Source: a virus. From it: a stretch of 29,576 nt of DNA. The position numbers were made by a program, and so were the translations under genes. The stretch is from the IMG/VR virus record IMGVR_UViG_3300025822_000018, positions 1 to 29,576 of that record. One strand, written 5' to 3'. Shown in pieces: positions 3,344 through 28,028 of this stretch (positions within the stretch are counted from its first letter, which is position 1; each line of letters begins with the position of its first letter). Below the pieces are notes generated by a model. The model ran no database searches. It worked only from the letters and a program-made list of their open reading frames with translations, and had not been told where the DNA came from.

Positions 3344-3844
3344 ATGGCATTAGATCAAATAAACGAATATCCAGTTACAACAACTGTAATAGATACAGCA
3401 TCATTTTTTGATATTGACCAATTTATAGAGGGTACAAGTTATGAAAGTCAAAAAGTTCCAATTTCTGTAATGTTAAAAACATTTGCAACAGCTCCTATAC
3501 AATTTGCGGCAACTGATTTAACAACGCCTTTTACCGTTTCAACATTTGATGTAGTAATTCCAATACCATACGAATTTTATGCAACTGAGATTAGAGCAAA
3601 TGTTAAGACAGCACCAACAGATGCAGAGCTTATTTTTGATATTAAAATGGACGGGGTTTCAGTTTTAAGTACTAAAATTACTATTGACCCTGGGGAAACA
3701 AGCTCAACAACAGCCACAGTACCAGCAGTTATATCAACGCCTACTTTAAATAACGATAAAATTATTACTGTAGAATGTACTCAGATAGGAGCAACTATTG
3801 CTGGAGCTGGTTTAACAATAACAATTAACGGTTACAGGTTATGA
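3344..3844 (+). CDS. Tail fibre/receptor-binding-like protein, 166 aa
   Basis: The first 45 residues (…YPVTTTVIDTASFFDIDQ…KVPISVMLKTF) resemble the N-terminal attachment motif seen in many phage fibre proteins, a short conserved strand-turn-helix that docks on the tail. Residues about 55-166 are a beta-rich domain (TAPTDAELIFDIKMDG…, then …GAGLTITINGYR) that I associate with phage fibre heads from many genomes; this is recall, not a search. There is no membrane segment. The stop overlaps the next ATG (ATGA), so it is probably translationally coupled to the BspA-repeat fibre gene. It likely belongs to the host-recognition apparatus of the left-flank phage. Confidence 0.6.
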   Translation: MALDQINEYPVTTTVIDTASFFDIDQFIEGTSYESQKVPISVMLKTFATAPIQFAATDLTTPFTVSTFDVVIPIPYEFYATEIRANVKTAPTDAELIFDIKMDGVSVLSTKITIDPGETSSTTATVPAVISTPTLNNDKIITVECTQIGATIAGAGLTITINGYRL

Positions 3845-4740
3845 TAATAAACCCTTTTATATTTGAGTCAGTACCTGTTGTTTCAACTGAATTTAAAATG
3901 ACGGTTGACACAACACAACCTGGAAGTGCTTCAGATACTTTTGTTTTACCTTTGCAGAATGGTGCGACATCAATGACCGTTTATTGGGGTGACGGCAATA
4001 GTGACGTTATTACGACTTACAATCAATCCGAACTTACTCACGTTTACGCTTCAAGTGGAACGTATCAAATTTATTTAGACGGTTCGTTTTCAGGAATTAG
4101 ATTTGCTGGCGGTGGTGATTGTCGGAAATTATCTTCAATCGATAATTGGGGAACTAATCAATGGCAAGAAATGAGTTACTCATTTTATAATTGTAGTAAT
4201 ATGGTTGGAACATATACTGACAATCCTGACACGTCATTGGTGGGAAATATGTATGGCGCGTTCAGAGCGTGTTCAAGTTTTAATAGTGATTTAATTTTTG
4301 ATTGTTCAAATGTTACAACTATGGCTTTTATGTTTTTCGGTTGTAGCTCATTTAATAGTGATGTTACTTTTACAAATACATCAAACGTTTTAAGCATGGG
4401 TGCAATGTTTAGAACGGCAACGGTTTTTAATAAACCTCTAAACTTTGATACATCAAGCGTGACAGACATGTCAAATATGTTAAGAAGTACAGCGTTTGAC
4501 CAAGATATAAGCGGATTCAATATATCAAGTTTGACAACAGCTTCAGCAATGTTTCTATATAACACAGCATTTTCAACTACTAATTACGATTTGTTATTGG
4601 TTGGTTGGGAAGGGCAAACACATAATAATTCAGTAAATTTTCACGCGGGAACGGCTCAATATAGTTCAGGCGCACCGGCAACTGCACGAGCGGGATTAAT
4701 TTCAGATTCATGGACAATAACTGACGGCGGTCAAGTTTAA
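3841..4740 (+). CDS. PKD plus BspA-like (DUF285) repeat tail fibre
   Basis: Residues about 40-80 (MTVYWGDGNSDVITTY…HVYASSGTYQIYLDG) are a clear PKD-like beta-sandwich motif. Residues about 95-255 hold repeats of about 25 residues with the DUF285/BspA pattern: blocks such as SNMVG, YGAFRACSSFNSDL, MAFMFFGCSSFNSDV, MGAMFRTATVFNKPL and MSNMLRSTAFDQDI, joined by 'ITTM/VTDM' strands. The C terminus (YSSGAPATARAGLISDSWTITDGG) is the usual end of this family. BspA-like proteins mediate adhesion to host surfaces and polymers. On a phage, after fibre genes, it probably acts as a receptor-binding or adhesin-like fibre. There is no signal peptide, which fits a virion protein. The start overlaps the previous stop (ATGA). 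Confidence 0.8.
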   Translation: MIINPFIFESVPVVSTEFKMTVDTTQPGSASDTFVLPLQNGATSMTVYWGDGNSDVITTYNQSELTHVYASSGTYQIYLDGSFSGIRFAGGGDCRKLSSIDNWGTNQWQEMSYSFYNCSNMVGTYTDNPDTSLVGNMYGAFRACSSFNSDLIFDCSNVTTMAFMFFGCSSFNSDVTFTNTSNVLSMGAMFRTATVFNKPLNFDTSSVTDMSNMLRSTAFDQDISGFNISSLTTASAMFLYNTAFSTTNYDLLLVGWEGQTHNNSVNFHAGTAQYSSGAPATARAGLISDSWTITDGGQV

Positions 4741-11952: not shown

Positions 11953-12244
11953 ATACTTGTTTGAATTCATTGAAGAACAAACTGATGACAAAGTCTATTC
12001 TATTTTGGCTGATGTTTCAACCGAAACAACTCGCTTCAATGACTTTTCAATCACAGACGGTGTTGACTTAACTTTTCCGATTGACGGATTCTATACTTAC
12101 AACATATATGAACAAGTGAACGGTTCGGGCAATCTTAACCCAACCGGTTTGACACTTGTCGAAACTGGTCGCGCTCACGTTTATGTGATTGATACGGCAA
12201 GGACAGAATATACAACAACGGAAACAAATTCAGTATATGAATAA
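11876..12244 (+). CDS. Virion-associated beta protein, 122 aa
   Basis: An upstream in-frame ATG at 11795 would overlap most of the previous gene, so I take ATG 11876 (MLRILKNSTTSIVVTV). The protein has strands such as VVTVTELTTLTNPEYLFEF, RFNDFSITDGVDLTFPIDGFYTYNIYEQ and LVETGRAHVYVI, a pattern I recall from structural proteins of Bacteroidota phages. There is no membrane segment. Its stop lies 8 bases inside the portal gene start (ATGAATAA), so it is coupled to the portal. It is probably a head-side or tail accessory protein; the exact role is unknown. Confidence 0.55.
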   Translation: MLRILKNSTTSIVVTVTELTTLTNPEYLFEFIEEQTDDKVYSILADVSTETTRFNDFSITDGVDLTFPIDGFYTYNIYEQVNGSGNLNPTGLTLVETGRAHVYVIDTARTEYTTTETNSVYE

Positions 12245-14000
12245 TAAAATAATGGCGACGGGATTTTCGAATTCAAAGAAACTGCCCGAAGCAAAAGAAT
12301 CGTTCGACAAGAAACTTGGTTTTCAAAAATGGGGAATCGACAATCAATATCCTTTCTACCTGGTTGATTTATATAATGGTTCAGCTTGGCATCAAGGAAT
12401 TATCAAAACGAAATCGTATTACATCGCCGGTGGTGGTCTTGAAACGGTGTCGGGACAACTTGACGAATTCTTGAAAAATCAATATTCAGATTATACCATT
12501 TCTGAAATGATGAAAAAAGTCGCGTTCGATTTTGAATTGTTCGACGGTTTTTGTGTTGTTGGTTCTTGGAATCGTGACGGTTCGAAGGTTGTTCGTTGGG
12601 AACATTTCGACATTGATAGAGTTCGAACTAATATAGACCAGTCAGTTTATTTCTTTTCCGATGATTGGTCAGCAAGGAAACAAACTAAAGAAGGTACAAA
12701 TTATCGACAGATTCTTCCATTAGACATGGAAAAGAAAGAAGGTAAATTTGTAATATATTATAAGTCACCCGCGAAACAAACGAAAGGCGATTTGGGAACG
12801 TATCCGAAACCGTCTTATATTGGTGGGATAACTGACATCAACGCGGATTTATTAATTTCAAAGTATCATTATTACGAAATTAGTAATGGATTTAAAATCG
12901 GAACGTTAATCAATTTCGCTTCAGGTCAACCGGAAACCGACGAAGAAGCCGAAGCAATTCGCGACGAAGTCAAAGGAACATCGACAAATATTGAAGATGT
13001 CAACGAAGTGATTATCACATTTTCTGACGGTAACGAAAACGCGCCGTCGGTATTATCTTTGAACGGGAACGATTTGGCTGACCGATACAATTTAACAGAA
13101 AAATCAATTCAACAAAATATACTTGTCGCACATTCAGCAACGAATCCGATGTTGTTCGGAATAAAGACTGAAGGTCAACTTGGCGGTGCTACTGAATTAC
13201 TTGAATCATTCGAAATATTCAAATCAATTTATGTGAACGGTCGTCAAGAATCTTTGTTGTGGGTACTTGACAAGATGATTGAATTGTCGGGTGAAGTTGG
13301 CGAAGTTGCATTCATTGAAGCAACACCGATGTCAGTAAAAAAAGAAGATTCACCGGTTCAAATGATAAACGAATTTAGGTCAGATGAAAAAGATTTGAAG
13401 GTGTTCAAAAAGTTCGGACAATCAAAGGACGAATTCAAAGTTGTGAAATCGATATCGGTATCAAATGACTTTGGATCGAAGCAAGTTGCACAATTCGAAG
13501 CCGATAATTTCAGCACTTTCTTCGATAAGATTGACGACATTCGAAACGATTTGTCCGACTTGGACAAGAACGTTCTTTCAATGTTGAAGTCAGGTGAAGA
13601 CGCGCCCGAAATATCAAAGGCGGTTGAATCACCGATTAAAGACATCGCAAAATCAATGGAGAAACTGGGCGAACTTAATCTAATTGTAAAAGGTGAAACG
13701 TCGAAACTTGGTGAACAAGTTCTTGAAGGTCTTGACGTTGAAATTGAGCAATTCGAAATTCGATATTCATACGAAGTGAAGCCGGGTATTGGACCGGATA
13801 AGATACCAGGAACTCGTCAGTTTTGTAGAACACTAATCGACATAAATAGAATGTATCTTCGAAGTGAAATCGATACGATTACGAACGCAATTGGTCGCGA
13901 TGTGTGGCGATATCGTGGGGGATTTTGGAATAACGGAACAGCGACAACACCTTGGTGTCGTCACGAATGGAGACAACATTTAGTAATAAAAAAATCATAA
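12237..14000 (+). CDS. Portal protein with C-terminal MuF-like domain
   Basis: The 587-aa protein combines two parts. Residues about 10-430 have portal features: the opening SKKLPEAKESFDKKLGFQKWGIDNQYP, the clip/stem region with …ATNPMLFGIKTEGQLGGATELLESFEIFKS around 300-335, and long helices beyond it. Residues about 510-585 resemble the MuF/SPP1 gp7 minor head protein: PGTRQFCRTLIDINRMYLRSEI, then WRYRGGFWNNG and TTPWCRHEWRQH with Cys and His. The portal forms the DNA entry ring, and MuF domains sit inside the head. I chose ATG 12237 (overlapping the previous stop); ATG 12252 is also possible. It comes after the capsid gene here, the reverse of the usual order, and no terminase gene precedes it. 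Confidence 0.8.
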   Translation: MNNKIMATGFSNSKKLPEAKESFDKKLGFQKWGIDNQYPFYLVDLYNGSAWHQGIIKTKSYYIAGGGLETVSGQLDEFLKNQYSDYTISEMMKKVAFDFELFDGFCVVGSWNRDGSKVVRWEHFDIDRVRTNIDQSVYFFSDDWSARKQTKEGTNYRQILPLDMEKKEGKFVIYYKSPAKQTKGDLGTYPKPSYIGGITDINADLLISKYHYYEISNGFKIGTLINFASGQPETDEEAEAIRDEVKGTSTNIEDVNEVIITFSDGNENAPSVLSLNGNDLADRYNLTEKSIQQNILVAHSATNPMLFGIKTEGQLGGATELLESFEIFKSIYVNGRQESLLWVLDKMIELSGEVGEVAFIEATPMSVKKEDSPVQMINEFRSDEKDLKVFKKFGQSKDEFKVVKSISVSNDFGSKQVAQFEADNFSTFFDKIDDIRNDLSDLDKNVLSMLKSGEDAPEISKAVESPIKDIAKSMEKLGELNLIVKGETSKLGEQVLEGLDVEIEQFEIRYSYEVKPGIGPDKIPGTRQFCRTLIDINRMYLRSEIDTITNAIGRDVWRYRGGFWNNGTATTPWCRHEWRQHLVIKKS

Positions 14001-17517: not shown

Positions 17518-17546
17518 TTGATAACTCAATATTATTATTATCTTTG
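17518..17546 (+). promoter_or_regulatory. Early-operon promoter (TTG-N18-TATCTTTG)
   Basis: TTG at 17518-17520 and TATCTTTG at 17539-17546 are separated by 18 bases, a full match to the Bacteroidota TTG/TAnnTTTG promoter. It lies right after a terminator and 24 bases before the ATG at 17571. It probably starts the replication-gene transcript. Confidence 0.65.
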
Positions 17547-17570: not shown

Positions 17571-17873
17571 ATGGAAAACAAGATTAAAGAAGTTCAACAA
17601 TACTTCAAAAGAAAAATCGTATCGGGAAAATACGAAGTTACAGAACACGGTCAATATTCGTGGGAATTAAAAATCGACGACTATCAATTCAGTATGTGGG
17701 TTTCAAACGGGTTCGAATATCTTTCGATTAAAGGATTCATGATTATACCATTGACCGAATCAGAACAAGAAACAATTTGGAAAAGAGTTGTTGAATTCAA
17801 AGAAGATAATTTGAAACTTATCATCAAGCGAAAAGAACAAGAACTTCAGGAACTAAAAAACAAATTATCATGA
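17571..17873 (+). CDS. Early hypothetical protein, 100 aa
   Basis: I chose ATG 17571, because the in-frame TTG at 17544 overlaps the promoter. The protein has a beta-sheet middle (…YSWELKIDDYQFSMWVSNGFEYLSIKGFMIIPL) followed by a charged helix with coiled-coil character (EQETIWKRVVEFKEDNLKLIIKRKEQELQELKNKL). It contains no DNA-binding motif I can name. As the first gene after the early promoter it could be a regulator or host-takeover protein. Its last bases overlap the next ATG (ATGA). Confidence 0.65.
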   Translation: MENKIKEVQQYFKRKIVSGKYEVTEHGQYSWELKIDDYQFSMWVSNGFEYLSIKGFMIIPLTESEQETIWKRVVEFKEDNLKLIIKRKEQELQELKNKLS

Positions 17874-18025
17874 ATAATAAGATAAACGATTTCTTTAATT
17901 CTAAGGTGGTAAAAACAGAATGGACGAACAAGTATACTATTAAAATACAATCGACCGTTAAACCGAAGAAAAAGTTCACGTATAACGAAATAGCCGAACA
18001 CATTTATAAACAATTAAAATCATGA
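17870..18025 (+). CDS. Small basic protein, 51 aa
   Basis: This small frame starts on an ATGA overlap with the previous gene and ends on an ATGA overlap with the DnaA-like gene, so it fills the space between two coupled genes exactly. The product (MNNKINDFFNSKVVKTEWTN…) is basic, soluble, and ends with a helix (YNEIAEHIYKQLKS). No family is recognised. The coupling on both sides makes it a credible gene. Confidence 0.6.
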   Translation: MNNKINDFFNSKVVKTEWTNKYTIKIQSTVKPKKKFTYNEIAEHIYKQLKS

Positions 18026-18360
18026 CTTTGAAAAACTGGGTTGAATACAAAAAACAAATAGCCGAAGGAATCCTTCCTGGTGTTATTGACATAATAGAAG
18101 AAGAAAAACTAAGGAAGCCGAATCGAACGCGACACATCGCACATCAAAGGTTTTTCTTAATGTGGTTTTTAAGAAGGAATACTGAAATGACACTTAGCCA
18201 AATCGGTAACTTATTCTTGAAGGATCATTCAAGTGTAATTCATGCGATAAAGTATCATGAAGAATCGGTTGAAATAAACGACAGAATTTATCAGTTGAAC
18301 ATTCAATCGATAAAAAAATTCCTGGAAGAACGACTTGATGAGATTCCACATTCCACATAG
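18022..18360 (+). CDS. DnaA domain IV-like DNA-binding protein
   Basis: The 112-aa protein contains the DnaA C-terminal helix-turn-helix: …RHIAHQRFFLMWFLRRNTEMTLSQIGNLF, then KDHSSVIHAIKYH at 67-79. The DHSSVIHA segment matches the domain IV signature (DHTTVLHA in bacterial DnaA) that contacts the DnaA box. No ATPase domain is present, so it cannot melt an origin by itself; it may direct host or phage replication proteins to the origin, or act as a repressor. Directly downstream, and inside its last codons, are repeated ATTCCAC boxes that share the CCACA core of DnaA boxes. It is followed, after the methyltransferase insert, by the primase-helicase gene. Confidence 0.8.
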   Translation: MTLKNWVEYKKQIAEGILPGVIDIIEEEKLRKPNRTRHIAHQRFFLMWFLRRNTEMTLSQIGNLFLKDHSSVIHAIKYHEESVEINDRIYQLNIQSIKKFLEERLDEIPHST

Positions 18361-18515
18361 AAAAGTGAAATTCAATACCCTTCTTTTTTTATAGGGTAAT
18401 TTTAAATCGTCCCCCAATTTTTGACGTGGCTATGTGGAATATTTAGAAAAAAACGTCTACAAGTCACGACAATATTGAATCGAAGCATTCCACATTGAAC
18501 GCTTCAAAGTGGAAT
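18343..18515. repeat. ATTCCAC/GTGGAAT box cluster, candidate origin or operator
   Basis: The 7-mer ATTCCAC or its complement occurs at 18343-18349, 18350-18356, 18434-18440, 18487-18493 and 18509-18515. The copies at 18350-18360 and 18430-18440 form an 11-bp perfect inverted repeat (ATTCCACATAG / CTATGTGGAAT). The last two frame a 29-base near-perfect palindrome (18487-18515) with arms ATTCCAC, GAA / TTC, GTGGAAT and centre CGC. The region is about 200 bases without a long gene. A separate TACCC…GGGTA inverted repeat lies at 18376-18398. The position next to a DnaA-like gene suggests iterons of an origin or an autoregulatory operator. Confidence 0.55.
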
Positions 18516-18533
18516 AAAACGGAATATTTTTAC

Positions 18534-18548
18534 AATTAAGCGGAATTA
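18534..18548 (+). repeat. 15-bp direct repeat, left copy
   Basis: AATTAAGCGGAATTA occurs here, 11 bases before the methyltransferase ATG, and again at 19537-19551, 5 bases after its stop. The two copies are 1003 bases apart and exact. Confidence 0.7.
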
Positions 18549-18559
18549 AAAAACAAATT

Positions 18560-19531
18560 ATGGATTTATTCGGGAATACAAAACAAGATTTATTAAATGA
18601 ATACTTTATCTATTGGAGAAAAAAGGGTTATCCAAACTATGAAAAAAATAATTATAATAATAAAAAAGAAATAAATAATCTTATAAATTTTAACGAAAAG
18701 TCTATTTATAAAAATAAGGTTTTAAAACAAACTATGCATTCTTGCGGTTTTTTATGGACATATTTTCCTCATTGGGTTGATGTAAGATATGGAAAACAAA
18801 AAACAATTAGGGAATTATGGAATGATGACGAAAAATTAAAAGAACTAATTAAAAAAACTTATGATTGGGAGTTGAAATTTGGAAGTGGATATATTACAAC
18901 AAATAGAATAAGACAAAACACAAAAGTTTATTTAAGTAAACAAAGCGTGAGTAATTTTAGACCAACAGTATCAAAATTTATTTACAATCAGTATGGTAAT
19001 AAGGGAATTGTTTGGGATATGAGTTGCGGTTGGGGGGGTCGTTTGTTTGGTTTTTTAGCTTCAAACTGTAAAAAATATATAGGTACAGAACCGTCCATTA
19101 AAACATTTAATGGATTAATAGATTTGAAAAATGATTTTAAATTAAAAGATATTGAATTATTTAATATTGGTAGTGAGCTTTATAAACCTAAAAAAGAAAG
19201 TTTAGATTTGTGTTTTACGTCACCTCCTTATTTTGATACTGAAAAATATAGTGAAGAAGAATCGCAAAGCTATATTAAATTTGAAACCATAGAAAAATGG
19301 ATAAATGGTTTCTATAAAAAGACAATTTTAAATTGTTTTAATGGCTTAAAAAAAGGAGGATACATGATTATAAATATAGCAGATACACCAAAACATAAAT
19401 GGATTGAAAGTGAAACTATTTTAATATCTGAAAGTTTAGGTTTTACGCTTATGGATATATTAAAATTAGAACTTTCTTCTATAAGTGGAAACGGTGCAAA
19501 ATATGAACCAATTTTCATATTTAAAAAGTAG
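18560..19531 (+). CDS. DNA methyltransferase (SPPY motif, N4/N6 amino type)
   Basis: The 323-aa protein has a SAM-binding motif I variant, VWDMSCGWGGRLFGF (about 151-165), and the catalytic TSPPYFDTEKYS at 220-231, typical of amino-group DNA methyltransferases (N6-adenine or N4-cytosine). LNCFNGLKKGGYMIINIAD follows at about 257-275. The N-terminal 140 residues may hold target recognition. No restriction endonuclease is adjacent, so protection of phage DNA from host restriction is the likely role. It is much more AT-rich than both neighbours (runs such as AATAATTATAATAATAAA) and sits between two exact 15-bp direct repeats, which marks it as an inserted unit. The precise target base cannot be read from motifs. 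Confidence 0.75.
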   Translation: MDLFGNTKQDLLNEYFIYWRKKGYPNYEKNNYNNKKEINNLINFNEKSIYKNKVLKQTMHSCGFLWTYFPHWVDVRYGKQKTIRELWNDDEKLKELIKKTYDWELKFGSGYITTNRIRQNTKVYLSKQSVSNFRPTVSKFIYNQYGNKGIVWDMSCGWGGRLFGFLASNCKKYIGTEPSIKTFNGLIDLKNDFKLKDIELFNIGSELYKPKKESLDLCFTSPPYFDTEKYSEEESQSYIKFETIEKWINGFYKKTILNCFNGLKKGGYMIINIADTPKHKWIESETILISESLGFTLMDILKLELSSISGNGAKYEPIFIFKK

Positions 19532-19577: not shown

Positions 19578-21941
19578 ATGAAAATAAGTTTATTCAAAAG
19601 TTTATATTCGACTAAAGATGTTTCTTATAAGATAGAAATTGAAGAAGCACTTGAAAGAATTCGGAACGGTTCAAGCAAAGAACTAATCGAACAAATTAGA
19701 AAAGGCGACAAGGAGAAAAAGAAACAACTTCCTGCAGTATGTTTCAACGGAACATTCACAAGTCGAAACGACAACAGCTTGATTGAACATTCAGGACTTT
19801 GCGTTTTGGATTTCGACAAGTATCCGTCAACTCAATCGATGAACAAAGAACGTAAAAGAATCGAAGAAGATTTGTTTACATTTGCGGTCTTCACTTCACC
19901 AAGCGGAAACGGTTTGAAAGTTCTTGTTCGGATTCCAAAGTGCGACAAGGACGAACACAAACTATATTTTAAAGGAATCGAAAAACATTTTGATTCTGAA
20001 TACTTCGACGAAAAGTGTTCGAATGTATCGCGTGTTTGTTTCGAATCCTACGATCCGAAGATATTTATTAATTATGAATCGATTGAATTCACAGATAAAG
20101 CAATCGAAGAAGGTTATTCAGTCACCGAAAAAGTTCCGATTCTACCTTTGAACAATGAGAATGAAATCATTTCGCGTTTAATGAAATGGTGGGAAGGGAA
20201 GTACGGACTTGTCGAAGGTAACTGGAATAATAATCTCTATGTTTTGGCGGGTGCGTTTTGTTCTTATGGCATCGACGAAGATTTCGCATTGACATACATC
20301 ATTCAAAATGTGACCGGTTCAAGAATGCCCGAAGTTGATGTTCAAGCATTGACACGTTCAGCTTATAAAAGAATTCCGTTCGGAACGAAATACTTCGAAG
20401 ACAGCACAACCGTAAAACGAATAAAACAGAAAGTTCAGAAAGGCGATTCAGTTGAAGCAATTATCAAATCGTTTCCAGGAATAGACAAGGCAACTATCGA
20501 AGAAGTGAACGAAGAAGTAAAAAAAAATAGTTCAATCTTTTGGAATTCTACAATGAACAAAAGCGGTGTTGAAATTGTAACGGTCAATCCTTTCAAGTTC
20601 AAAACATTCTTGGAAGAAAACGGATTCAATAAGTATTATCCCGAAGGTGGCGACACACCTTTGTTCGTTCGACATGAACAAAATATCGTCAACACAACGT
20701 CGGTCGAAAAGATAAAAGATTTTGTATTGAATCATTTAGGTGTCAAACATGAATGGTCGGTGTGGAACTATGTCGCAAAGTCTTCAATTCTATTTAGTGA
20801 AAAGTATTTGAATATGTTGGATTCAATCGCACTTAAAATGCTTCAAGATACGAAGGTGTTTTGTTATCTATATTATCAAAACGGTGTCGTCAAGATAGGA
20901 CAAAAGAAGATTGACTTTTTAAGTTACATTGAAGTTGACGGATTCGTATGGCAGAAACATATTATCACACGTGATTATATTCATTCTAATGACCTGACAA
21001 ATGATTTTCAAGACCTTGTGTCGAAAGTATCGAACGACGATGTGACGCGCTTAAAATCGCTTGAAAATACAATCGGATATTTGATGCATTCATTCAAAGA
21101 CAAGACCGACCAAAAAGCAATTATATTAAATGACCAAGAAATTAACGACGACCCGAACGGTGGGTCGGGAAAATCTTTAATGTTGACCGCTTTGACATAC
21201 TTCAAAAAGATGGTTCAGATTGACGGGAAAACATTCGATCCAAGTCAATCACAATTCGTTTATCAACGTGTCGATGTTGATACGCAAATCTTAGCGTTCG
21301 ACGATGTCAAAAAGAACTTCAATTTTGAGCAACTCTTTTCACTTGTTTCGGGTGGTGTTACCGTGAACAAGAAAAACAAAGACGAAATATTTATTCCATT
21401 CGATAGGTCGCCGAAAATAATTATAACGACGAACTATGTGATAAACGGTTCAGGTGGTTCACACGACAGACGAAGACACGAAGTTGAATTCTTTCAATAC
21501 TTCAGTTCGAAACGTTCACCGCTTCAAGAATACGGTCGATTGCTTTTTGACGGTTGGAACGAATCGGATTGGATAGCGTTCGACAATTATATGATATCGA
21601 TAACACAAACTTTCTTGAATGAAGGATTGACAAAAACGATTTCGATTAATGCTGAAGTGAAACGATTCATTCAACAAACTTCAAAAGACTTTTTCGATTG
21701 GATTGAAGAAGGGAACATTCAAAAAGATTCAAGAATGTACACAACCGACACGGTCAAATCATTTCAAAACGAATACAAGTCGAACGACTTCTTGAACAAT
21801 CGAACGTTCTTGAACTGGGTGAATAAGTATTGCGAACTGAACAAATATAATCTAACCAAATCACGCGACACGGTCGGTCGATACTTTACAATCGAAACCG
21901 AAGAACCGAAAAAAGTCGAAGAAGATAAATGTCCATTTTAG
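19578..21941 (+). CDS. Primase-helicase (VirE_N/BT4734 plus SF3 helicase)
   Basis: From ATG 19578 the protein has 787 aa; earlier in-frame codons overlap the methyltransferase and repeat. Residues about 1-180 resemble the VirE_N/BT4734 domain, related to archaeo-eukaryotic-type primases: PAVCFNGTFTSRND, HSGLCVLDFDKYPS, FAVFTSPSGNGLKVLVRIP. A PriCT-like helical part follows (MKWWEGKYGLVEGNWNNNLY…). The C-terminal half is an SF3/D5-type helicase with Walker A NGGSGKS (about 525-532), Walker B QILAFDDV (about 570) and the sensor segment KIIITTNY (about 612-619), then an Arg cluster (SHDRRRHEVEFF). It probably primes and unwinds phage DNA. It is the central replication enzyme of the block. Confidence 0.85.
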   Translation: MKISLFKSLYSTKDVSYKIEIEEALERIRNGSSKELIEQIRKGDKEKKKQLPAVCFNGTFTSRNDNSLIEHSGLCVLDFDKYPSTQSMNKERKRIEEDLFTFAVFTSPSGNGLKVLVRIPKCDKDEHKLYFKGIEKHFDSEYFDEKCSNVSRVCFESYDPKIFINYESIEFTDKAIEEGYSVTEKVPILPLNNENEIISRLMKWWEGKYGLVEGNWNNNLYVLAGAFCSYGIDEDFALTYIIQNVTGSRMPEVDVQALTRSAYKRIPFGTKYFEDSTTVKRIKQKVQKGDSVEAIIKSFPGIDKATIEEVNEEVKKNSSIFWNSTMNKSGVEIVTVNPFKFKTFLEENGFNKYYPEGGDTPLFVRHEQNIVNTTSVEKIKDFVLNHLGVKHEWSVWNYVAKSSILFSEKYLNMLDSIALKMLQDTKVFCYLYYQNGVVKIGQKKIDFLSYIEVDGFVWQKHIITRDYIHSNDLTNDFQDLVSKVSNDDVTRLKSLENTIGYLMHSFKDKTDQKAIILNDQEINDDPNGGSGKSLMLTALTYFKKMVQIDGKTFDPSQSQFVYQRVDVDTQILAFDDVKKNFNFEQLFSLVSGGVTVNKKNKDEIFIPFDRSPKIIITTNYVINGSGGSHDRRRHEVEFFQYFSSKRSPLQEYGRLLFDGWNESDWIAFDNYMISITQTFLNEGLTKTISINAEVKRFIQQTSKDFFDWIEEGNIQKDSRMYTTDTVKSFQNEYKSNDFLNNRTFLNWVNKYCELNKYNLTKSRDTVGRYFTIETEEPKKVEEDKCPF

Positions 21942-26780: not shown

Positions 26781-28028
26781 ATGGCTGATAATCTAATTAA
26801 GCGAGTATTTAACGCTTTTACTAATAAAAATCATTCGTTTTCATTATCCTCAGCATCTACAAATAACTTTGGTATTCTTAGTGGAGTACTTGACTACCTA
26901 ACAGGTAAAAAGTCATTTGAAGTTTATACAAAGTCATACGGAGATAACCCATTAGTTTACATGATAGTTAAAAAGATAGCGTTTTCAAGCGCATCTATTA
27001 AGCGTGTATTTACTAATGAGCAAGGCGAAACAATAGAAAACTCAAAGCTACAAGAGTTCTTAGAAAAGCCTAATAGTGATCAGGGAATGACTGAGCTATT
27101 TGAAGAAATAAACGAGTATTTATCTATAACAGGTAATTGCTTTATTCGTTGGATTGATAGCGGTTTTGGTAGTGGCGAATTGATTATACTACCAACTAAT
27201 TCAGTTGAAATAACATCTGATGTCGCTGGAGTAACAGGTTATAAATACACTAATACAGATAGCAAAGTAATCTTTATAAGTGATGAGGATATGTTGCATT
27301 TAAAAACAAATAATATAGTTGAGCCTTCAACAAATTTAGGCTTAAGTCCTCTCCAGGCTGGTTGGATAGTTGTTCAATCATCATCAGAAAAGTTTAATGC
27401 TGATGCGAGTATATTTAAGAACAGAGGTATTGTTGGACTGCTTACAAATGATACTGACGTTCCAATGCTTGGAAAAGAGCAAAAAGAATTACAGGAGTCT
27501 TTTCAAGATACTGTTGGAGGATCTGACAAATACAATAAGATAGCAGTTACAAATACTCGTTTAAGATTTCTTCAAACAGGAATGAGTCCAACAGATTTAA
27601 AACTTTTGGAGGGTATATTATCTTCTTTGCGTATTATTTGCGGTCTTTATGGAATGCCTTCAGTATTATTTAATGACAATGAAACGAGTACTTATAACAA
27701 TGTAACTGAGGCAAAAAGAACGGCCTTTACAGATGTTTATATTCCATTAGGGCAGAAAGTAGATAAGGCTTTATCAATGTTTTTAAATAAAAAGTTAAGA
27801 GTAAACGAAAATATTATAATTGATTTAACGAGTATTGAGGTATTAAAGGCAACTACTAACGAACTTGCACAGGCTTTATCAAGTCTTTCTCCATTACTTT
27901 CTAATAAGGTTTTGGAGTCAATGACTGAGGACGAAATTAGATCCATTGTTGATTTAGGTATATTAACTGAGGGACAAATAACAGTTGGAATGCAAGGTAA
28001 TGCACCAACTTTAACTGTTGGAACATGA
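26781..28028 (+). CDS. Portal protein, HK97 type
   Basis: The 415-aa protein has typical HK97-family portal features: NPLVYMIVKKIAFSSASIKRVF near residues 57-80, a LQEFLEKPNSDQGMTELFEEINEYLSITGNCFIRWI block at about 90-130, LGLSPLQAGWIVVQSSSEKFNADASIFKNRGIVGLL around 185-220, and the clip/stem region with YGMPSVLFNDNETSTYNNVTEAKRTAF at about 290-320. It forms the dodecameric ring at the packaging vertex. It is unrelated by eye to the portal-MuF protein at 12237. Its upstream gap of 87 bases has a TATTTTTA -7-like element but no good partner. The stop overlaps the next small ATG (ATGA). Confidence 0.88.
   Translation: MADNLIKRVFNAFTNKNHSFSLSSASTNNFGILSGVLDYLTGKKSFEVYTKSYGDNPLVYMIVKKIAFSSASIKRVFTNEQGETIENSKLQEFLEKPNSDQGMTELFEEINEYLSITGNCFIRWIDSGFGSGELIILPTNSVEITSDVAGVTGYKYTNTDSKVIFISDEDMLHLKTNNIVEPSTNLGLSPLQAGWIVVQSSSEKFNADASIFKNRGIVGLLTNDTDVPMLGKEQKELQESFQDTVGGSDKYNKIAVTNTRLRFLQTGMSPTDLKLLEGILSSLRIICGLYGMPSVLFNDNETSTYNNVTEAKRTAFTDVYIPLGQKVDKALSMFLNKKLRVNENIIIDLTSIEVLKATTNELAQALSSLSPLLSNKVLESMTEDEIRSIVDLGILTEGQITVGMQGNAPTLTVGT

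Follow-up and report, generated by a model that had tools for sequence, protein, structure and literature searches.

At positions 18,022 to 18,559 of the window, by which we mean the whole stretch of 29,576 nucleotides of viral DNA analysed here (IMG/VR record IMGVR_UViG_3300025822_000018), a gene for a small protein resembling the DNA-binding domain of DnaA adjoins a cluster of short repeated boxes, and a gene for a primase-helicase lies further downstream. This arrangement raises two questions: whether the boxes belong to a phage replication origin, and which of the two proteins reads them. Our answer, to which we assign a probability of roughly 0.6 on the basis of sequence comparison across about a hundred related phage loci, is that the ATTCCACAT boxes would be iterons of a phage origin that are read by the primase-helicase, with the DnaA domain IV protein as a conserved accessory. 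The identity of the small protein, the box cluster, the conservation of both and the dependence of the box sequence on the replication protein are established.

The box cluster and its surroundings

The features of the locus are as follows (position, strand, description).

17870..18025, +: small ORF of 51 aa, directly 5' of the DnaA-like gene
18022..18360, +: gene for a DnaA domain IV protein without AAA+ ATPase, 112 aa, ATG start (PF08299 and AlphaFold model)
18343-18351 and 18350-18358, +: two head-to-tail boxes ATTCCACAT within the 3' end of the DnaA-like gene, coding PHST; same layout in relative L001 at 2918-2933
18361..18559, no strand: noncoding AT-rich stretch with boxes, candidate replication origin; no + strand promoter match
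18432..18440, -: inverted box ATTCCACAT, kept in L001 (3003) and relative L002 (4768)
18487..18495, +: box ATTCCACAT, left arm of a 29-nt near palindrome; L001 3056, L002 4821
18507..18515, -: box ATTCCACTT (8/9), the near palindrome's right arm; 20 nt from start to start behind the preceding box in 3/3 phages
18520-18525 and 18541-18546, +: partial boxes CGGAAT past the last full box; L001 keeps both, L002 just the first
18560..19531, +: DNA methyltransferase gene (N6_N4_Mtase), about 25% GC; separates the boxes from the primase gene here, while L001 and L002 have none at this place
19578..21941, +: primase-helicase (BT4734-like_N / AEP primase; Walker A NGGSGKS), PF08800 E 7e-24, phrog_28855 E 1.5e-163; putative reader of the boxes
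21645..21938, +: C-terminal domain of the primase-helicase (residues about 690-787), with a winged helix predicted by modelling; candidate for reading the boxes

The word ATTCCAC occurs at 18343+, 18350+, 18434-, 18487+ and 18509-, and its sole other copy in the 29.6 kb is at 23338-. The five clustered boxes comprise four exact copies of ATTCCACAT and a fifth with one mismatch. The total over the window is ordinary (6 copies versus 3.9 expected). The clustering exceeds that in all 200 first-order shuffles: for 7-mers with at least three G/C, five non-overlapping copies of any 7-mer within 180 nt were found in 0/200 shuffles, and the maximum was 4. The five boxes had been noticed in the sequence-only reading of this DNA, together with an 11-bp inverted pair (18350-18360 versus 18430-18440, 69 bases apart) and a 29-base near palindrome (18487-18515, with 13-nt arms that are 92% complementary), and all of these are present. 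Two details of that description need adjustment. The boxes were said to follow the DnaA-like gene, which holds for three of them, the first two being inside its coding 3' end; and the primase-helicase gene is indeed downstream of the boxes, but the methyltransferase gene comes first. The cluster has the form expected of an iteron origin, in that short repeats in both orientations occupy noncoding DNA near a replication gene.

The same boxes were sought beside homologous genes in other phages, and they are present at near-identical spacing in two relatives, L001 and L002. The primases of these relatives are 83-88% identical to that of the window, but for the DnaA-like proteins identity to the window protein drops to 42% and 49%. 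In both arrays, an inverted box is followed after 53-55 nt by a direct box, after another 20 nt by a second inverted box and then by CGGAAT, and the primase gene is directly 3' of the boxes (L001:3121, L002:4896). A scan with a variable-spacing box pattern found L001 and L002 only among the relatives, and the other eight matches have no similar origin region. Since homologous genes have the box cluster at a corresponding position, the proposal of a candidate phage origin stands as a reading of the sequence.

A methyltransferase-like ORF also sits between the DnaA-like gene and the primase gene in L061. Small ORFs that look like the one at 17870-18025 lie beside the DnaA-like gene in L001 (2452-2625), L002 (3790-4044) and L046 (3777-3983), in each case upstream, and in L027 (4555-4734), downstream.

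Because the boxes are 5' of the methyltransferase and primase genes, they might instead be operators at which either the DnaA-like protein or the replication protein acts as a repressor of the genes that follow, with the origin elsewhere; in iteron systems, one DNA stretch can be both operator and origin, which speaks for this possibility. However, a promoter of sigma-70-like or Bacteroidota-like TAnnTTTG type was not found on the + strand of 18343-18560, and the closest upstream + strand TAnnTTTG is at 17539, ahead of the group formed by the small ORF and the DnaA-like gene. The number of boxes, their inverted layout and their tight linkage to the helicase-primase also better fit an origin, and we regard the operator explanation as quite improbable. 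Note that the match at 17539-17546, TATCTTTG, is a Bacteroidota-like -7 element before the 17568-18360 gene group, of a kind that is common by chance.

GC skew gives no support for an origin at the box cluster. It is monotonic in the window; after detrending, it reaches its minimum at 22.8 kb and dips less deeply at 18.5 kb, and the methyltransferase gene, with its 25% GC, confounds this pattern. The skew of the window is uninformative, since all the replication genes are on one strand and the window is incomplete. In the complete phage ctfjg026, the GC-skew minimum is at the transcription divergence instead of the gap before the primase gene.

The stand-alone DnaA domain IV protein

The 112-aa protein had been described as essentially a DnaA-like DNA-binding domain with the signature DHSSVIHA and no ATPase, and this identification is borne out. 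The signature is present in the ORF at 18022-18360, and residues 25-77 match Bac_DnaA_C (PF08299) with E 2e-13 and 50.6 bits (cut-off 31.5). The AlphaFold model (pLDDT 88) has as its top PDB matches the DnaA DNA-binding domains 3pvp, 8btg and 1j1v, each with probability 1.00. The NCBIfam DnaA models cover only their C-terminal 75-78 positions in the protein. For example, TIGR00362 scores 41.8 bits versus a cut-off of 343.9 and is matched only at profile positions 361-435, so that the protein is not a full-length DnaA with AAA+ domain III; domains I-III are absent from it.

In the profile alignment, R35, R43, R51, D68, H69 and S70/S71 of the window protein correspond to R399, R407, K415, D433, H434 and T435/T436 of E. 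coli DnaA, with Arg in place of K415 and Ser in place of T435/T436. We take R407 and K415 to belong among the DnaA-box contact residues whose equivalents are kept. The DnaA residues that contact bases are R399, P423, D433, H434, T435 and H439 (PMC7561715; see also PMC5043019). The DNA-contact residues of the DnaA-like protein are conserved throughout the family, although the protein diverges fast, and their conservation suggests that the 112-aa protein could bind a DnaA box (TTWTNCACA). The window contains no copy of the canonical DnaA box TTATCCACA, and no cluster of canonical DnaA boxes for this protein was seen in it.

An ORF for such a protein was located within 1.5 kb upstream of the primase gene in 57/66 loci, counting loci with more than 1.5 kb upstream. 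The way of searching mattered: a search of viral contigs with the single DnaA-like sequence gave no relatives, while the alignment found 32 loci, and no relatives were found in genome contigs. L002 has a second DnaA-like copy in tandem, 23% identical to the window protein. Its genes at 4041-4370 and 4354-4680 are tandem overlapping DnaA-domain-IV genes, the second being like the L039/L040/L046 type.

Which protein the box sequence follows

In one possibility raised by the sequence-only reading, the DnaA domain IV protein would itself bind the ATTCCACAT boxes and mark the origin for other proteins. Two properties of the locus agree with this: the TCCACA core of the DnaA box is contained in the window boxes while the protein keeps equivalents of the contact residues, and the gene and the boxes overlap. 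If this protein reads the boxes, the box sequence should be expected to vary with it among related loci. The noncoding gap between the DnaA-like gene and the primase gene commonly contains repeats, the sequence of which varies by lineage. The repeat types include CCACAT, GTGACGA/CGTCACG, GTTACAA with TTGTCGCG (the L030 group), GTGTAAAGT (L052) and CCGACTTTTA (L047).

We compared pairs drawn from 58 loci, where replication proteins were called alike when their C-termini were at least 70% identical and DnaA-like proteins unlike when below 45%. With the same replication C-terminus and different DnaA-like proteins, boxes were common to 86% of 188 pairs (mean Jaccard 0.31). With the same DnaA-like protein and different replication proteins, they were common to 7% of 29 pairs (mean Jaccard 0.005), against a background of 14% (mean Jaccard 0.015) for pairs of unlike proteins. 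Partial Mantel correlations were 0.53 between boxes and replication protein (p 0.001) and 0.13 between boxes and DnaA-like protein (p 0.009), p-values that are indicative only because related loci are non-independent. The second correlation, though small, persists independently of the replication protein and counts against our explanation.

Individual groups of loci behave in the same manner. In L047-L057, the DnaA-like genes have 87-99% DNA identity and identical helix-turn-helix motifs, and the sequence then switches abruptly to one of four unrelated cassettes of boxes plus replication gene, the switch falling on the first box, within the stop codon or right at it; the DnaA-like protein persists through this cassette exchange. 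Conversely, the primase C-termini of L073-L138 are nearly identical and their boxes are CGTCAC-like, with DnaA-like proteins of several divergent types. In L030, the recognition helix DHSSVIHA is identical to that of the window, yet the boxes are unrelated, and the boxes of the window recur beside the 42-49% identical proteins of L001 and L002, in which the recognition helix is altered (NHATVING in L001). Finally, L005, L008, L009 and L013, with primases about 55% identical to that of the window, have CCACA boxes upstream and no adjacent DnaA-like gene; for three of them, L005, L009 and L013, a search of the whole contig (22-34 kb, perhaps not complete) found no such gene at E 0.001.

The pair counts, the Mantel correlations and the cassette switch agree in making the repeats specific to the cognate replication protein, as an association rather than as binding; part of it could be linkage without direct recognition, as the boxes and the replication gene are adjacent. 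The DnaA-like protein is accordingly disfavoured as the box reader: it does not appear to be what gives the boxes their sequence, and the claim that it recognises them is not supported. Because the box sequence tracks the replication protein and CCACA boxes also occur where no DnaA-like gene was found, the TCCACA core, real as it is, probably resembles the DnaA box by a coincidence of lineage. With its contact residues kept and TCCACA in the boxes, the window protein could bind them in this one lineage, but as a general explanation we consider box recognition by the DnaA-like protein distinctly unlikely. As a caution for similar loci, resemblance to the DnaA box alone is poor ground for assigning boxes to a DnaA-like protein.

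L047-L057 amount to a natural swap, in which boxes and initiator change together and the neighbouring DnaA-like gene stays, so that the role of stand-alone DnaA domain IV proteins is directly testable. Two further repeat arrays were observed in the collection. Seven ACCCTTG words lie at L042:1468-1713, behind a DnaA-like gene and before a different BT4734-like primase, and 11-12 copies of CAACTTG / AAGTTGG lie in the 450 nt 5' of the primase gene in L063, where no DnaA-like gene was found.

The primase-helicase as candidate initiator

In the explanation that we prefer, the boxes at 18343-18515, with weaker GGAAT repeats up to 18546, would serve a phage replication origin as its iterons. The primase-helicase would bind them directly, for which the winged helix predicted at its C-terminus is the likeliest part, and would go on to self-load as a helicase, melt the AT-rich stretch and prime DNA synthesis there. 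The DnaA domain IV accessory at the edge of the origin would bind other DNA in the fashion of DnaA, either a weak site in the origin or DnaA boxes of the host.

The N-terminal part of the primase-helicase matches the AEP PrimPol fold (VIA-align Z 8.1). The model has pLDDT 77-88 across most of residues 690-775 and is poor in the remainder; residues 687-775 have winged-helix structure matches with Z 5-6. A sequence search of the C-terminus against solved structures gave no match, including none to an origin-binding protein of known structure. The helicase region of the window has no Pfam match and a poor model, and that of relative L048 matches DUF5906 with E 2e-5, just below the cut-off. Across the family, an RDxxGR winged helix-turn-helix C-terminus goes with CCACAT boxes in 9 loci and an NH/DHxGR C-terminus with GTSAC boxes in 49, with 0 crossings and 34 loci unclassified, a pairing that is suggestive and phylogenetically confounded. 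Domain-wise partial correlation with box type among 14 dereplicated primases was 0.23 for the N-terminal part (p 0.015) and 0.14 for the C-terminal part (p 0.105).

Alternatively, the DnaA-like protein may act away from the locus, where it would keep host DnaA off its boxes by competition or prevent initiation in the host; its gene would then belong to the replication module only as an early gene expressed along with it. Its conserved contact residues, its fast divergence and its uncoupling from the box type would all suit such a role. HdaB of Caulobacter, which is said to consist of DnaA domain IV only and reportedly acts on host initiation control, would be a parallel; the title of the report on it (Frandi & Collier 2020, cited in PMC7561715) calls it DnaA-related. 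HdaB differs in being an alphaproteobacterial chromosomal protein that acts on RIDA and is not known to be linked to a primase-helicase or a phage origin. Against off-site action, the position of the gene beside the primase gene is very constant in most loci, which suggests a role in phage replication. We consider off-site action unlikely, and it is compatible with reading the boxes as iterons of the primase-helicase.

Such iterons have precedents. SaPI Rep and SCCmec Cch2 are helicases that bind iterons through a C-terminal domain (PMC7581432). They resemble the arrangement proposed for the window: a mobile element encodes a helicase or primase-helicase that loads itself, and short boxes are repeated in an origin beside the rep gene. 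Their C-terminal domain binds double-stranded DNA, and the predicted winged helix is a candidate for its counterpart here. In contrast to these systems, the boxes here precede the rep gene and reach into the 3' end of a gene for DnaA domain IV, and the C-terminus has no sequence match to a solved structure. The alpha protein of phage P4 is a primase-helicase in which an AEP-type primase is fused to a helicase with a C-terminal origin-binding winged helix. The window protein may have the same make-up, its AEP part being supported and its winged helix predicted, but P4 is not known to have a DnaA-like partner. Bacterial DnaA shares the domain IV helix-turn-helix and the conserved DnaA-box contact residues; unlike DnaA, the window protein lacks the AAA+ ATPase and domains I-III, and the boxes at the site do not track it. 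On the best reading of these comparisons, an iteron origin with a self-loading primase-helicase would be of a known kind, and the stand-alone DnaA domain IV protein at its edge would be a new twist.

Phage genes annotated as having a DnaA helix-turn-helix exist in Olleya phage Harreka_1 ('DnaA protein') and phage ctfjg026 ('dnaA'). The latter also has a related primase with CTATGTC repeats upstream of it, but its dnaA gene is 2.4 kb from the primase gene; in Harreka_1, an adenine methyltransferase gene comes after the DnaA-like gene. Named relatives point to Bacteroidota as the probable host group of the phage family. A limited search of the open-access literature found no publication on phage DnaA modules.

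A search of IMG/VR with a primase alignment found at least 575 relatives, of which 80 were taken for analysis, and our reading would predict, for this large family of uncultured phages, where replication starts and which protein recognises the origin. A more general scheme is possible, though doubtful: a split initiation module in Bacteroidota-type phages, in which exchangeable cassettes of boxes plus initiator provide specificity and the fast-evolving DnaA domain IV protein serves as a universal accessory whatever the cassette. It might, for example, bind a weak origin site that the cassettes share, such as TTATATACC, or adapt initiation to the host. The element TTATATACC/TTATTATACC is absent from the window. 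Upstream of replication genes it occurs 34 times in 43.7 kb versus 15 times in 772 kb elsewhere, in 34/97 loci, and it lies just past the first boxes, across different box types, in L030, L005, L008, L009, L013, L073, L081, L104, L105 and L122. Its agreement with TTATNCACA at 7/9 positions is a lead rather than a test.

Elsewhere in the window, 3841-4740 encodes a phage protein that contains DUF285 repeats and matches PKD weakly, and two ORFs, 12189-14000 and 26781-28028, match portal-protein families (PHROGs).
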